Origin: Erythrobacteraceae bacterium Alg239-R51
Lineage (GTDB): Bacteria; Pseudomonadota; Alphaproteobacteria; Sphingomonadales; Sphingomonadaceae
Assembly: GCA_947331495.1 (NCBI GenBank)
Contig: CAMZOI010000001.1
Span: forward strand, 1,426,001-1,490,000
Direction of reading: 5' to 3'
Length of the DNA: 64,000 nucleotides
Below are positions 4,814 to 62,330 of this stretch, in pieces (position 1 is the first letter of the stretch; the number at the start of each line of letters is the position of its first letter). The notes under the pieces were generated by a model. The model was not told the DNA's origin. It did no database searches and saw only the letters and a list, made by a program, of their open reading frames with translations. A program made the translations under genes and the position numbers.

Positions 4814-5497
4814 TTATCGCGGCGCTGGGATCGAGTGGAGTAGGGGGCAGCTTTTCGCTCCGATATCGGTCGTTCGGGTCGGTTCGACAAAATCCCGAAA
4901 CCTGCCTTCGATTCCTTCGACGACTTGTGCAACCGTATAATGGTCTAGGCCCAATGCACTCACTGCACGCCGGGTAGCTTCGAACAGCGCCTGACTCTTG
5001 GCTGCCAAGCCATAAGGCATATGATTGAAACCGACGGCATTGTTGTAGGAAAGCGCACCGACAAAACCGGCCAAACCCCCGCCCAGCGAATGGCCGGTAA
5101 GTGTGGCCGCACCATTGCCAAAATCGAATACCGACTTTTTGGTCACGTCCTCGTAGAACGCGATCGCCAAGCCCGCTTGCGAAGCTTGGTTGAAACCCGC
5201 ACCGACAGTCCACCCGTTCCAGATGTCCTTGACCAGCGGGCTGTCGAGCGCTGCATCGATCGTGTCGAACACGATCTCGAAATTGGACCCGCGGTAGGAA
5301 ATCACCGTCTCGCCGTTCCACTCATAGGCGATGGCGTAGAAGCCGGCATCTTGCCAACCGCTCTGCTCATCCGGTCGAAACGGGCGGATTTTCGCGGCTC
5401 CAATACGACCGGTTTCCCACAGACCGTCTACATTGGCACCGTAACCGCGATTGTATGAGTCCAGGGCAAGGAGAGAAAAGAATACTTCGCGGTTCAT
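4814..5497 (-). CDS. Lipase class 3-like alpha/beta hydrolase, probably 3'-truncated
   Basis: This 227-residue protein has the nucleophile elbow TGHSLGG (Ser137) and an upstream oxyanion-type segment VISYRGSNFE, as in lipase class 3/DUF2974 (Mbeg1-like) hydrolases. There is no signal peptide. Family members are usually longer, and no clear catalytic Asp/His follows before the stop. The last residues (AKSCPLLHSIPAPR) run into REP sequence, so the true C-terminus has probably been lost by rearrangement beside the lepA-tail repeats. Its ATG overlaps the stop of the upstream lipoprotein gene (ATGA), which indicates translational coupling. The activity and substrate are unknown. Confidence 0.65.
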   Translation of the reverse strand: MNREVFFSLLALDSYNRGYGANVDGLWETGRIGAAKIRPFRPDEQSGWQDAGFYAIAYEWNGETVISYRGSNFEIVFDTIDAALDSPLVKDIWNGWTVGAGFNQASQAGLAIAFYEDVTKKSVFDFGNGAATLTGHSLGGGLAGFVGALSYNNAVGFNHMPYGLAAKSQALFEATRRAVSALGLDHYTVAQVVEGIEGRFRDFVEPTRTTDIGAKSCPLLHSIPAPR

Positions 5498-6580: not shown

Positions 6581-7375
6581 TTACTCCAGATCCCGCCAGT
6601 GGTCCTCGTCCTCGTTCCACTGGTCCAGTTCGTCCGCGACCTCGTTGATGTCTTCCAGTTCGCCCGCCGCCTTCCAATCCTTGTCGTGACCGAGCTGGAG
6701 GAAGGCTGCGTCGGCGTCGGCCTCGACCGGCCCGTCTTCCTCGGCGCGCTTGCGGCGGGCGATTTCAGCGAGCTGGGTCTGCATGTCCTCGATCTCCGCC
6801 AGGCTCATCGCCACCGGATCGAAATGCTCGACCATGGCGGCGTTCATGTCGTCCTTCTCCGCGCGGGTGAGGGCGGGCACGGTCATGCTCGCACCGGCCG
6901 GGCTTCCCGAGAGGCGTGCCGCGTCGCTGTCGAAATAGCTGGCCGAGAGGCGTTTGCCGCGCTCGTCGCGGGCGTTCATCCTCAGGCAGAACATCAGCAG
7001 GCGATCGTTGCGGATGCGGCGGAAGCCTTTCAGCTTGCCGCCGACGAAGACCGGGCTGAGCTGGCCATCGATCGCGCGTTCATAGGCGATGTCCTTCAGC
7101 CGCTGCACGCCGAGATCGAGCGCGGCCTCCCATGCGCGGCGGAAGCTTTCGGAACCGGGGCGACGGCGCAGGTAATAGGCGCCTTCGGGGCTCATATTGA
7201 CATAGCGCGCGGCGCGGCTGACGCTGCCCGTGTCGGCCAGCGCGCCGATGAACGCCTTCTGACGGGCCGGGGTCCAGCCGTCGTGGCGGTACTTGACGGG
7301 GACATGTTCAAAGGCGGGCAGGTCTTCGCGGGCGACGGGGGTGCGGGTTTCGGCGGGGTCCTTGCGGCGGGTCAT
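6581..7375 (-). CDS. Uncharacterised protein with HTH-like N-terminal domain (paralogue A)
   Basis: This is a 264-residue protein. Residues ~33-75 (WTPARQKAFIGALADTGSVS, RAARYVNMSPEGAYYLRRRP) look like a helix-turn-helix of the kind that recognises DNA in terminase-small-subunit-like or homeodomain-like proteins. The middle part carries ERAIDGQLSPVFVGGKLKGF, and the C-terminal half is acidic. The gene at 61254-62261 encodes a paralogue with the same N-terminal pattern (GWTP...F...LA..G....A.R.V..S...AY.LRRR). No family name is known to me. Two copies of a TGTAGG(G)AAA motif lie immediately upstream (7389-7436). Confidence 0.7.
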   Translation of the reverse strand: MTRRKDPAETRTPVAREDLPAFEHVPVKYRHDGWTPARQKAFIGALADTGSVSRAARYVNMSPEGAYYLRRRPGSESFRRAWEAALDLGVQRLKDIAYERAIDGQLSPVFVGGKLKGFRRIRNDRLLMFCLRMNARDERGKRLSASYFDSDAARLSGSPAGASMTVPALTRAEKDDMNAAMVEHFDPVAMSLAEIEDMQTQLAEIARRKRAEEDGPVEADADAAFLQLGHDKDWKAAGELEDINEVADELDQWNEDEDHWRDLE

Positions 7376-7388
7376 GCGGGGGCTCTCC

Positions 7389-7404
7389 TGTAGGGAAAAG
7401 CACG
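7389..7404 (+). promoter_or_regulatory. Recurrent motif TGTAGGGAAAAGCACG
   Basis: A 16-bp sequence that differs by one base from the one at 40902-40917. It lies 13 bp upstream of the ATG of paralogue A, next to that gene's GGAGAG ribosome-binding site. Function unknown. Confidence 0.45.
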
Positions 7405-7426
7405 GAGCATGGGCCGTCTGCGGGCC

Positions 7427-7436
7427 TGTAGGAAAG
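7427..7436 (+). promoter_or_regulatory. Recurrent motif TGTAGGAAAG
   Basis: Second, shorter copy of the motif, 38 bp further upstream of paralogue A in the same orientation. Both copies are preceded by CC. Confidence 0.4.
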
Positions 7437-9467: not shown

Positions 9468-10733
9468 TCAGGGCCGGGTCTGACCACTGCCATGCACCAG
9501 ATATTTGAAACTGGTCAGCTGTTCCAGACCCACGGGTCCGCGCGCATGCATCTTGCCCGTGGCGATACCGATTTCGGCACCCATGCCGAACTCTCCGCCA
9601 TCGGCGAACTGGGTAGACGCATTATGCATGACGATAGCGCTGTCTATCGCGGTCATGAACATTCTTGCCGCCTCGGCATCTTCGGCCATTATCGCGTCGG
9701 TGTGGTGGCTTGAATGCGTGTCGACCCAGGCGATCGCCTCGTCGAGTCCGTCGACGATCTTCACGCTGGCGATTGGGTCCAGATACTCGGTATCCCAGTC
9801 CTCTTCGCTGGCAGGCTTGATCCGATCGTCGATGGCGACAGCCTCGGCATCGCCGCGCAATTCGCAGTCCTTGCCCATGATCTCGGCGATTTTCGGCACG
9901 GCCTGCTGGGCCACGGCGCGATCGATCACGATGCTTTCGGTTGCGCCACATACGCCGGTGCGGCGCAGCTTGGCGTTGCGGATCACCTTGGCCGCTTTGT
10001 CCAGATCGGCCGAAGCATGAACATAGCTGTGACAATTCCCGTCGAGATGGAGGAGCGTGGGTACGCTGGCCTGGTCGCGTACCAGTTCCACCAACCCGCG
10101 ACCGCCGCGCGGAATGACGAGGTCGACGAACTGGTCAGCCTTGAGAAGCGCAGCAACGGCCTCGCGATCCGTGGTCTGGACCGTTTGAACCGCATCGGCG
10201 GGCAGTCCTGCCTCGGCCAGCCCGGTCTGCATGCATTCGACGATGACCCGCGTGGAATGACGGCTTTCGCTACCACCGCGCAGGATCACTGCGTTGCCCG
10301 ACTTGAGGCAAAGTGCGCTGGCATCGGCGCCTACATTGGGACGCGATTCGTAAATCATCCCGATCACGCCTATCGGGACGGCAACCCGTTCGATGTTCAG
10401 CCCGTTGGGACGTTCGAACGTTGCCAACCGGCGTCCCACCGGATCGGGCAGTTCGGCAATCTCCTCGAGCGCCGAGGCCATCGCTTCGATACGGTCCTCG
10501 GTAAGGCGCAGCCGGTCGATGAAGCTTTCCGGCTTCTTGCCTTCGACGCTGGCAACATCCTGCGCATTGGCTTCGAGCAATTCGCCCGAGCGATTGCGGA
10601 GCGCGCCTGCTGCTTTGCGCAGAGCGTTGTTCTTCTGATCGGTCGTCGCGGTGACGAGGCCGCGCGCCGCCTGTTTCGCGCGACTGCCAAGTTCGTGGAT
10701 ATGGATCTGCGGATCAAGGGTCTGGTCGTTCAT
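9468..10733 (-). CDS. proA: Gamma-glutamyl phosphate reductase (glutamate-5-semialdehyde dehydrogenase)
   Basis: This 421-residue enzyme matches full-length ProA, the second step of proline synthesis. It reduces gamma-glutamyl phosphate to glutamate-5-semialdehyde with NADPH. The catalytic cysteine lies in [13 protein letters not shown], and the ProA-typical segments [20 protein letters not shown] and [13 protein letters not shown] are present. It lies 45 bp downstream of proC on the same strand and is probably cotranscribed with it. The kinase gene proB is divergent, about 1 kb away. Confidence 0.97.
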
Positions 10734-10778: not shown

Positions 10779-11567
10779 TCAGCGCAGCTCGACCGCGCGG
10801 TTGTAAGCGGCTTCGAGCGTTTCGCGAAGCCGATGCGAAATCTGTGCGTCGCCGTTCAGTGCTTCCAGTCCGGCGGCCGTCGTCCCGCCCTTGCTGGTTA
10901 CCGAATTGCGAAGTTCTTCCAATGCGGGCGCGTCCGGTTCGAGCGCCATTGCCGTCGCGCCTTCGATCGTTCCGAGAACCATTGCACGCGCTTCGTTTTC
11001 GTCAAAGCCGAGTTCCATCGCGGCGGCGATATAAGCCCGCATGATTTCAAAGACATAGCCCGGGCCGGAGCCTGCAATGGCGGTTACGCGGTCGATCCGG
11101 TCCTCGCTGTCCACGGTGATCGCGGTGCCGGCACGACGCATCATTTCTTCCGCATGAGTAAGTTGCGAACTTTCCGCACCCGGTCCGGCGCAGACGCCGC
11201 TTACGCCCTTTCCGACAGCTGCCGGAAGATTGGGCATCACGCGGATAACGGGCGCGCCGTTCATGAGTTTCGACATACGGTCAATCGAACAGCCCGCCGC
11301 AATTGAAATGACATACCCCCCCGGTGCCAGCATCGCTGCGTAATCCGGCAGGATATCGTCGACCATCTGCGGTTTGATGGCCACGATCACGACATCGAAG
11401 CGTTCATCGGCTATGGACTCGCGCGACGAAACCAGACGCGCTTTTTCAGGCGCAGTGTCGAGCATCGGATCGACAATGGTGAACTGTTCGTCACCTTGCA
11501 TCCAGTGGTCGAGCAAGGCGCCGCCCATTTTGCCACAACCGATCATGACTATTCTGGAGTAGGAAAT
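10779..11567 (-). CDS. proC: Pyrroline-5-carboxylate reductase, probable non-canonical start
   Basis: ProC reduces pyrroline-5-carboxylate to proline using NAD(P)H. The Rossmann motif is IGCGKMGG, and the C-terminal signature appears as RNSVTSKGGTTAAGL. The first ATG (11546) would begin at the end of the first beta strand (MIGCG). The frame continues upstream as SYSRIVMIGCG, which restores that strand. An ATT at 11567-11565 is preceded, 6 bases away, by GAGG (11577-11574), so I place the start there. The ATG at 11546 is the conservative alternative. The gene is upstream of proA in the same operon and divergent from proB. Confidence 0.93.
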   Translation of the reverse strand: MSYSRIVMIGCGKMGGALLDHWMQGDEQFTIVDPMLDTAPEKARLVSSRESIADERFDVVIVAIKPQMVDDILPDYAAMLAPGGYVISIAAGCSIDRMSKLMNGAPVIRVMPNLPAAVGKGVSGVCAGPGAESSQLTHAEEMMRRAGTAITVDSEDRIDRVTAIAGSGPGYVFEIMRAYIAAAMELGFDENEARAMVLGTIEGATAMALEPDAPALEELRNSVTSKGGTTAAGLEALNGDAQISHRLRETLEAAYNRAVELR

Positions 11568-41698: not shown

Positions 41699-41707
41699 TT
41701 TCCTACA
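41699..41707 (-). promoter_or_regulatory. Recurrent motif TGTAGGAAA (minus strand)
   Basis: Reads TTTCCTACA on the plus strand within GCTTTCCTACACGCC. It lies in the gap before the YdjM-like gene, and is the same motif seen at 7389, 7427, 40902 and 62321. Confidence 0.35.
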
Positions 41708-61253: not shown

Positions 61254-62261
61254 TTACCCCCTCATGTGACCTTGCGGTATGGACGGTCGAGGAAGGGAGC
61301 GGTTCCTGCGCCCGATCACGCGTGGCGCATCCTGCGGCGAGTGCGAAATAACGAATTCGTCCGGACCAGGGCCATCTGCCAGGGCGCGGGAAAGGGCGCA
61401 GGTTGACACAGTTGACAGTGTCCTGGGAAATGAAAGCGCGTGCCCGATAGCGGGCTCTTCTGCGGGCTTGCGACAGGCTGCGGCAAGCGCGGCTGCAAGG
61501 GTGGCAGGGTCGGGCTGGTCGGGCGTGGCGTAGAGCGCATCGAGCGCCTCCAGCGCCAGAGAAGCGTTCCGGTTGCGCCGATCCCATTCCTCACCCGCCT
61601 CGATCCGGGCGCGTTCGGCCACTTTGCTGCATTCGTGTTCGATCGCCTCGGCATTATCGAGATAGCCGTCTTCATCATAGGCATCCTCGTCTTCGGGATC
61701 GCCCAAGTCGAAGTCCCAACCGTCATGGCAGGATTTTTCGTCGTCATGATCGCCCATCGCCTCGGTGCGGAAGCTGTCGGCTGCCTGGTCCGCCGCAGTC
61801 GCCACGAATTCCTCGCGTTCGGGAAGCGGGCCGTCTTCGCACTCTTCGATGACGCAGGCGAGCAGCGCGTCGAACTGGCCCGCATCTTCATCCGTTGCCC
61901 GATCGTTCGCCAGCTTGTCGAGCCGGGCGAGATGCGCCAGCAGCAGGCGCGAATCGAACCGGCGGCGCGTGCCGACCAGCTCGCCGCGATAGTAGATCTG
62001 TTCCTCGACACCCTCGATGGCCCGTTCGCCCAGCACTTGCTGTCCGTTCTCGCGCGCCAGCACCAGGGCCGCGGCCCAGCCGCGTGCGAAAAGCATATCG
62101 CGGCGGCGCAGACGATAGGCAGCCTCGGCGGACAGGCCGACATTGCGGCAAGCGGCCCGGGCGTTGCCGTGCGATGCCAACCGGTCGAGAAAGCGTGCCT
62201 TGAGCTCGGGGGTCCAGCCACGGGCGGGCGTATGGGCAAGGGGCTCGGCAATGTCGGACAT
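61254..62261 (-). CDS. Uncharacterised protein with HTH-like N-terminal domain (paralogue B)
   Basis: This is a 335-residue protein. Its N-terminal ~110 residues match paralogue A (6581-7375): RGWTPELKARFLDRLASHGN, AACRNVGLSAEAAYRLRRRD, ERAIEGVEEQIYYRGELVGT. The middle is acidic (DFDLGDPEDEDAYDEDG). The C-terminus carries a TGTCAAC-type repeat in its DNA and a disordered tail, and is probably poorly conserved. No named family. Its stop abuts the exchanger gene. Confidence 0.7.
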   Translation of the reverse strand: MSDIAEPLAHTPARGWTPELKARFLDRLASHGNARAACRNVGLSAEAAYRLRRRDMLFARGWAAALVLARENGQQVLGERAIEGVEEQIYYRGELVGTRRRFDSRLLLAHLARLDKLANDRATDEDAGQFDALLACVIEECEDGPLPEREEFVATAADQAADSFRTEAMGDHDDEKSCHDGWDFDLGDPEDEDAYDEDGYLDNAEAIEHECSKVAERARIEAGEEWDRRNRNASLALEALDALYATPDQPDPATLAAALAAACRKPAEEPAIGHALSFPRTLSTVSTCALSRALADGPGPDEFVISHSPQDAPRVIGRRNRSLPRPSIPQGHMRG

Positions 62262-62320: not shown

Positions 62321-62330
62321 TGTAGGAAAA
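62321..62330 (+). promoter_or_regulatory. Recurrent motif TGTAGGAAAA
   Basis: Lies 59 bp upstream of paralogue B, in the same orientation relative to that gene as the two copies before paralogue A. Confidence 0.4.

Follow-up and report, generated by a model that had tools for sequence, protein, structure and literature searches.

Unlinked small-terminase-like proteins of Sphingomonadaceae lie behind a promoter element shared with the GTA-type holin

Two proteins of Erythrobacteraceae bacterium Alg239-R51, P0001 and P0002, are encoded within the same stretch of 64,000 nucleotides (hereafter the window) and are, as judged from sequence profiles, homologues of the small terminase subunit (TerS) of phages and gene transfer agents (GTAs). 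Our main finding is that family genes standing alone on the chromosome are preceded by a short element that also precedes the GTA holin gene; this shared element ties the TerS-like family to the GTA lysis genes, a link unseen in the earlier note on this DNA. With a confidence somewhat above even, we consider these genes to encode stand-alone TerS-like DNA-binding proteins that have expanded in the Sphingomonadaceae (GTDB) and that, by their promoter, belong to the regulon of the GTA-type holin.

The earlier note had described two open reading frames with a common N-terminal pattern; both are present as stated, both on the minus strand (Table 1), and their homology is statistically supported (a single BLASTP comparison aligns 38 identical residues in 97 columns, that is, 39%, E 3e-15). 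Its suggestion that the N terminus is of the terminase-small-subunit type is borne out by the profile phrog_4044, which matches P0001 at E 2.4e-14 and P0002 at E 1.8e-17, and by Sf6 TerS heading the matches of the P0001 model, while neither Pfam nor NCBIfam gave a confident match to a non-DNA-binding family. The remark that phage genes are missing nearby also holds: none of eight window neighbours matches a phage structural family in PHROGs (four are without match, three have matches of unknown function only, and the 62882-63955 gene matches lytic-transglycosylase or endolysin-domain families, as a host Slt-like enzyme would), and a GTA-type large terminase (TerL) is absent from 20 P0001-type loci (L105-L124), most of about 10 kb. 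As for the two copies said to be retained in the lineage, the expansion is real and the count was too low, since the genome holds ten unlinked members; the regulatory or chromosomal role that it deduced may apply.

Table 1. Positions of the TerS-like genes, their domains and upstream elements in the window, with the unlinked members of the whole genome
Feature	Position	Strand	Basis or remark
P0001, 264-aa orphan small-terminase-like protein	6581..7375	-	ORF; acidic variable tail past about residue 137
P0001 core, HTH - long helix - beta hairpin - helix, residues 31-134	6974..7285	-	AlphaFold model
Sf6 TerS	P0001 core 6974..7285	-	Top PDB match of the model
P0002, 335-aa orphan small-terminase-like paralogue	61254..62261	-	ORF, BLASTP
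P0002 residues 8-112, small-terminase profile match	61926..62240	-	phrog_4044, E 1.8e-17
TTTCCTAC element of P0001, ATG 60 nt on	7428..7435	-	Within the span of the earlier note (end 7436)
TTTCCTAC element of P0002, ATG 68 nt on	62322..62329	-	
proA (name from sequence), upstream neighbour recurrent for P0001 orthologues	9468..10733	-	Context only
Unlinked members, part 1	P0001, P0002, C4:39622, C4:34636, C1:2003103		
Unlinked members, part 2	C2:292740, C1:1026022, C1:1942413, C1:2035953, C2:80313		C2:80313 weak (37.7 bits)

All ten proteins scanned, nine unlinked members (the weak C2:80313 was left out) and one GTA-linked copy, match phrog_4044, the best of them at E 9e-19. Pfam returned HTH-type matches, those of both window proteins all under the cut-offs (HTH_1 (LysR), 15.0 bits against 26.6, for P0001; HTH_28, 15.6 bits against 25, for P0002). 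Structure prediction, which the earlier note had proposed, gave a usable model for one of the two: the P0001 model, built with 17 relatives, has a mean pLDDT of 58.6 and is confident solely at the core (about residues 31-134), where a three-helix HTH is followed by a long helix (76-103), a beta hairpin (105-121) and a further helix (124-134); that of P0002 (mean pLDDT 48) is of low confidence and was left unused. Searched against the PDB with Foldseek, the P0001 model finds the Sf6 small terminase first (E 0.24, probability 0.95); a second aligner gives Z 6.5 for this pair over 92 residues at 3.5 A, with the next unrelated entry at 4.9, a score below the safe level, as Z under 8 may reflect a mere common arrangement. 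The HTH part is weakly similar in fold (Z 4.3) to a phBC6A51-type phage protein (2ao9), a score lower than that of Sf6 TerS and on a par with those of unrelated SANT and TetR-type entries. Viral models gave better matches, the best named one being again a TerS, that of phage Ab18 (E 8e-7). A PDB sequence search with two family profiles gave nothing meaningful, an IMG/VR search with P0001 gave no relative, and the phage relatives that were found are about 29-38% identical. Structural support is thus modest, and the identification as TerS-type rests on the sequence profile. The tails vary between orphans, differ from the GTA TerS tail and are modelled with low confidence in P0001.

Searching the genome of the window (2.9 Mb, four contigs) with P0001 gave 12 places at E up to 1: the ten unlinked members, one GTA-linked copy at C1:282308, and a match at C1:1180850 (E 0.05, one internal stop) that was left out of the count. 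At its end, the C1:282308 gene runs into the beginning of a gene for a GTA-type large terminase, the only TerL found in this genome. By eye, this GTA-linked gene (L019:9054-9845, minus strand; G000:C1 about 282053-282844) has an apparent frame break between two HTH units, and a relative (L199) reads through; possible readings are an impaired GTA in this strain or a later gene start. Adjacent to the C4:34636 member lies a degenerate duplicate (C4:36054, locus L159) that has kept promoter and start and lost the domain.

A profile search across Sphingomonadales, as the earlier note had proposed, shows the family to be expanded in the bacterial family of the window. The profile matches in 57 of 61 genomes, 11 times in the genome of the window and 1-9 times in 36 other genomes of the genus; in 24 genomes from the order's other families a single copy is usual (18 genomes), two copies occur in two and no copy in four. 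Seventeen of these other-family copies, all detected with the family profile itself, were read: 16 stand immediately 5' of a GTA-type TerL (42-50% identity to that of the strain), and one, the G038 second copy (L102), is on a 7.7-kb contig that has no TerL. When GTA clusters of the window's family were found through TerL instead, a weaker relative (34-51 bits) lay 5' of TerL in all 20, several of these relatives carrying two HTH units (GTA TerS with one or two units were noted at L199-L216, L218 and L019). Named relatives of P0001 come from Qipengyuania, Erythrobacter, Tsuneonella, Altererythrobacter, Sphingorhabdus and Sphingomonas. In six of eight named Qipengyuania or Erythrobacter loci, proA lies upstream of the P0001 orthologue on the same strand, at a distance of 0.1 to about 6 kb; as no flank exceeded 6 kb, proA may be further away in the other two.

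In a tree of 71 domain sequences, computed by a quick method on 118 columns, one branch (SH-aLRT 97) separates the 32 unlinked sequences and a second (98) the 20 GTA TerS from the window's family, the remaining GTA TerS not forming one group; the alignment is short, the tree unrooted, and one unlinked sequence sits on a very long branch. From these sequences, the unlinked group would fit an old duplication of GTA TerS and a separate phage origin alike. Compared pairwise with six orthologues, P0001 has dN/dS values of 0.08-0.22 over residues 1-137 and of 0.28-0.39 in the tail, which shows that it is under purifying selection.

In the DNA upstream of the paralogues, TTTCCTACA stands before most. 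In the form finally used, the element (TTTCCTAC or TGTCCTAC) lies at most 450 nt 5' of the domain in all 66 distinct unlinked members, which are the best-scoring ones, include close relatives and are not independent events. The remainder of 20 such loci contains 8 occurrences in 415,012 nt, giving 0.57 expected in 66 upstream regions. As the final form was recognised on the same 66 members, these are no independent test of it; such a test is provided by the background and by the holin loci. A further set of 19 named loci, which overlaps in part with the first and at least six of which apparently repeat earlier ones, has the element in 18 (the Sphingomonas locus L269 is without it). By the same 450-nt rule it is missing from all 36 TerL-linked copies (16 outgroup loci and 20 clusters from the window's family), and TTTCCTAC is likewise absent within 450 nt at the GTA head-tail cluster promoter (0 of 36); within 1 kb one of the 36 copies has it, L205, with two sites 573 and 807 nt away. 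The element starts exactly 36 nt before the rule-picked ATG in 21 of the 66 members, and this exact spacing would fit a leaderless-type promoter with TTTCCT near -35. The window has six TTTCCTAC in total against 0.54 expected; besides those of P0001 and P0002, two lie inside the ORF at 4814-5497, one 5' of the ORF at 10779-11546 and one at 41699.

Most orphan promoters combine TTTCCTAC with, at best, a TGnTYCA-like right half and lack the whole palindrome. On its own, TTTTCCTAC is not enriched in the genome of the window (25 matches against 17 in the control) and several sites are inside genes, so many single sites would be due to chance. The stricter WTTTTCCTACAYNCGC was too narrow, with 7 matches in 41 genomes. 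A search of 61 genomes for TTTCCTAC-N(9-14)-TGNYYCA, with 30 loci read, led to 13 family genes, 3 holins and 14 places elsewhere (8 in other families, 3 representing one rplJ-like site in related species, and one DUF6437 gene among them); this pattern is not exclusive to the family. At gathering thresholds, Rfam matches neither the window nor any of six loci surrounding the element. The site of CtrA is TTAA-N7-TTAA, and CtrA was dropped as reader of the palindrome because the spacing is unlike this.

Other repeated sequences were observed in these genomes. A long, GC-rich, REP-like repeat (GGCGACCGCCCGCCCGCAGCGGGTGC... and variants) occurs upstream of family genes in same-genus genomes (L035, L036, L040, L044, L049, L054 and L080). 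TTTTCCTACA stands about 55 nt before the gene of a 163-aa HTH_31-like protein (L137, G000:C1:482249; under cut-off), which is a candidate regulator of the element's regulon. At L149, L151 and L154 (G000:C1 1690805, 1938351 and 2162476), TTTTCCTACA is followed by GCTAGGCT or GCTAATCC and then by ATCGGCTCTTT; these three similar stretches, without match in Rfam, are possibly small RNA or tiny-ORF units. An inverted repeat, GGAC..TGTAACA..GGTCC, recurs by L139, L142, L151 and L154 in the same genome and is absent from the window.

The 137-residue protein encoded behind the element is the GTA holin (PF11351, E 3e-27), found in 58 of 61 genomes. TTTCCTAC or TGTCCTAC lies 5' of the holin in 27 of 30 loci, all from the same genus or the strain itself (L232, L238 and L240 are without the strict element). 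An exact AACC-N5-GGTT is present at 17 of the 30; in a subset of the holin loci, wherever both occur, it begins 11 nt beyond the first base of TTTCCTAC. The strain's own holin (C1:1200302) carries TTTCCTACACGAACCAATATGGTC. Across 119 genomes of the window's family, the combined element TCCTAC-N3-AACC-N5-GGT occurs at 54 places against 13 in the control. The holin follows at 56-66 nt in 24 of 30 such loci read. Of the other six, L274 carries a GH108 endolysin (PF05838, E 5.5e-27) and, at 653 nt from the element, a holin; L283 carries a family member, and L270, L284, L293 and L299 look like chance. The complete holin-type element is also borne by the P0001 orthologues L263 and L265-L268, and two TTTTCCTACA copies precede a phage-lysozyme gene (PF00959, E 4e-8) in the genome of the window.

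At the GTA head-tail cluster promoter, an AACC-N5-GG-like sequence just upstream of TTGACA was seen by eye in many of the clusters from the window's family and in several from other families. In clusters L019 and L199-L216 a conserved AACC-N5-GGTT-like sequence precedes TTGACA, and a GAACATCGCGATAGTGTGATTCG-like stretch lies downstream.

The strain's own GTA capsid protein was matched in 33 of 60 same-genus genomes (E 1e-10), at full strength in 27, the remaining matches being split, fragmentary or about 46-48% identical. Among genomes of adequate quality, the mean family count is 5.6 in 16 capsid-positive and 5.8 in 15 capsid-negative ones, a comparison that leaves out G001, G015 and G035 (split or fragmentary capsid) and G005, G012 and G028 (fragmented or less complete), and whose capsid-negative genomes include two still with a GTA-like TerL (G018, G036) and one with a 48% capsid match (G029). 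Keeping G005, G012 and G028 brings the capsid-negative mean to 5.1; subtracting one GTA TerS per capsid-positive genome brings that mean to 4.6, with p 0.08 against 0.61 unsubtracted. Dependence of the orphans on the GTA was not upheld, as the counts do not follow capsid presence, and a loss of unlinked copies along with the GTA particle genes was not seen. Seven genomes (G013, G021, G027, G029, G030, G033 and G034) have neither a GTA-grade TerL (E <1e-75) nor a full-strength capsid match; each has 4-6 family-profile matches, a part of which may belong to prophages or be leftover GTA TerS, all keep the holin, and six keep its strict element. Since holin, element and unlinked TerS-like genes are kept in these GTA-poor genomes, the set looks to outlive the particle genes, and the unlinked TerS-like genes are not GTA genes in the strict sense.

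How the orphans act can be read in several ways. They might be alternative small terminases, each docking on the GTA TerL and selecting its own chromosomal region for packaging. The retention of the full TerS core, including the beta hairpin and the next helix, would suit this, as would the same HTH core in the GTA TerS of the order and an upstream element common with the GTA lysis genes; we nevertheless find it unlikely, given that the orphan tails vary and differ from that of GTA TerS, that no TerL is linked in the loci read, and that the seven GTA-poor genomes keep their profile matches, even if some are prophage or leftover genes. Ordinary transcription factors, for which the TerS-type HTH would have been recruited with TTTCCTAC as their own operator for auto- or cross-regulation, are a possibility to which we give limited credit. 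The position of the element as a promoter before nearly every member read speaks for them, together with the core being the most conserved part and with the chromosomal location of the genes, P0001 having a recurrent neighbour. Yet the combined element precedes the holin in 24 of 30 loci and a family gene in one, and an nnCC-N5-GGnn-like sequence, seen by eye, marks GTA cluster promoters where mostly the GTA-linked copy alone was found. That a similar palindrome stands at the GTA promoters of other families lowers the idea that the family reads it; an older regulator may read that half.

Orphans made together with the holin might also be decoys that poison the packaging of infecting phages, a role compatible with their relationship to phage TerS, with copy numbers varying between genomes and with the retention of the holin without GTA. 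We hold it to be quite improbable: PADLOC gave no match for P0001 or P0002 at E up to 1, the P0001 neighbourhood is recurrent, selection on P0001 is purifying and not diversifying, and the phage relatives are distant in sequence. Finally, functionless prophage debris, of which the degenerate copy beside C4:34636 could be an example, seems most improbable, as the upstream element is conserved, P0001 orthologues have no GTA-type TerL nearby and dN/dS of P0001 is well under 1; for P0001 the selection and promoter results already contradict it.

Returning to the reading that we favour, stand-alone DNA-binding proteins of the holin regulon, the orphans would be produced alongside the holin once the lysis (GTA) programme is induced. 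They would bind chromosomal DNA through the TerS-type HTH core, probably as oligomers like phage TerS, and the acidic variable tail, taking the place of the terminase-docking segment, would carry a new activity. We prefer a role as effector or regulator on host DNA to one as spare GTA packaging adaptor, since the genes are kept in the absence of the motor. More tentatively, and at less than even confidence, we propose that holin and orphan TerS, under one promoter element and retained after loss of capsid and motor, may form a particle-independent lysis regulon made of GTA parts, in which the orphans would have a non-packaging role on host DNA at programmed lysis.

Going by the P0001 model, with its modest structural scores, the family would share with the Sf6-type TerS of phrog_4044 an N-terminal HTH, a long helix, a beta hairpin and a following helix; unlike it, the family consists of chromosomal single genes with no linked TerL and with lineage-specific acidic tails, and 21 of the 66 members have the leaderless-looking promoter element at 36 nt. 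Homologues occupy the position of gp1, directly 5' of the GTA TerL, as TerS of the RcGTA gp1 kind do, whereas the window proteins themselves are not GTA-linked. RcGTA gp1 is reported to have no HTH domain in the available portion of PMC6854486; on that account the Sphingomonadales GTA TerS, with one or two HTH units, differ. In Caulobacter, according to PMC11150451, the promoters of about 18 GTA accessory genes are bound by GafY and IHF, with a palindrome attributed to GafZ situated between the -10 and -35 positions. The scattering of chromosomal genes under one GTA-type control resembles, as far as these sources go, the accessory genes controlled by GafA or GafYZ in Rhodobacter and Caulobacter, the sequence element being different. 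Among the accessory genes named in the portions at hand of PMC11150451 and PMC9632790, none is small-terminase-like. More broadly, the open-licence literature searched describes neither the TerS-like family nor the element. TerS-like proteins and GTA regulons were known already; as far as we have seen, the multiplication of unlinked TerS under a holin-type element is new.

Alphaproteobacterial GTA genetics is largely based on Rhodobacter and Caulobacter. The Sphingomonadales gain here a candidate promoter signature for GTA-type lysis genes and a set of putatively co-regulated genes, none of which we found described in the open-licence literature; both signature and co-regulation are open to test in culturable Qipengyuania or Erythrobacter. 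The GTA-linked TerS of the order are seen to have HTH domains, unlike RcGTA gp1 as described in what is available of PMC6854486. The family as a whole offers a case of a packaging protein multiplied and retained without its motor, and the element shared with the holin suggests that sphingomonads reuse phage packaging parts in a lysis programme.
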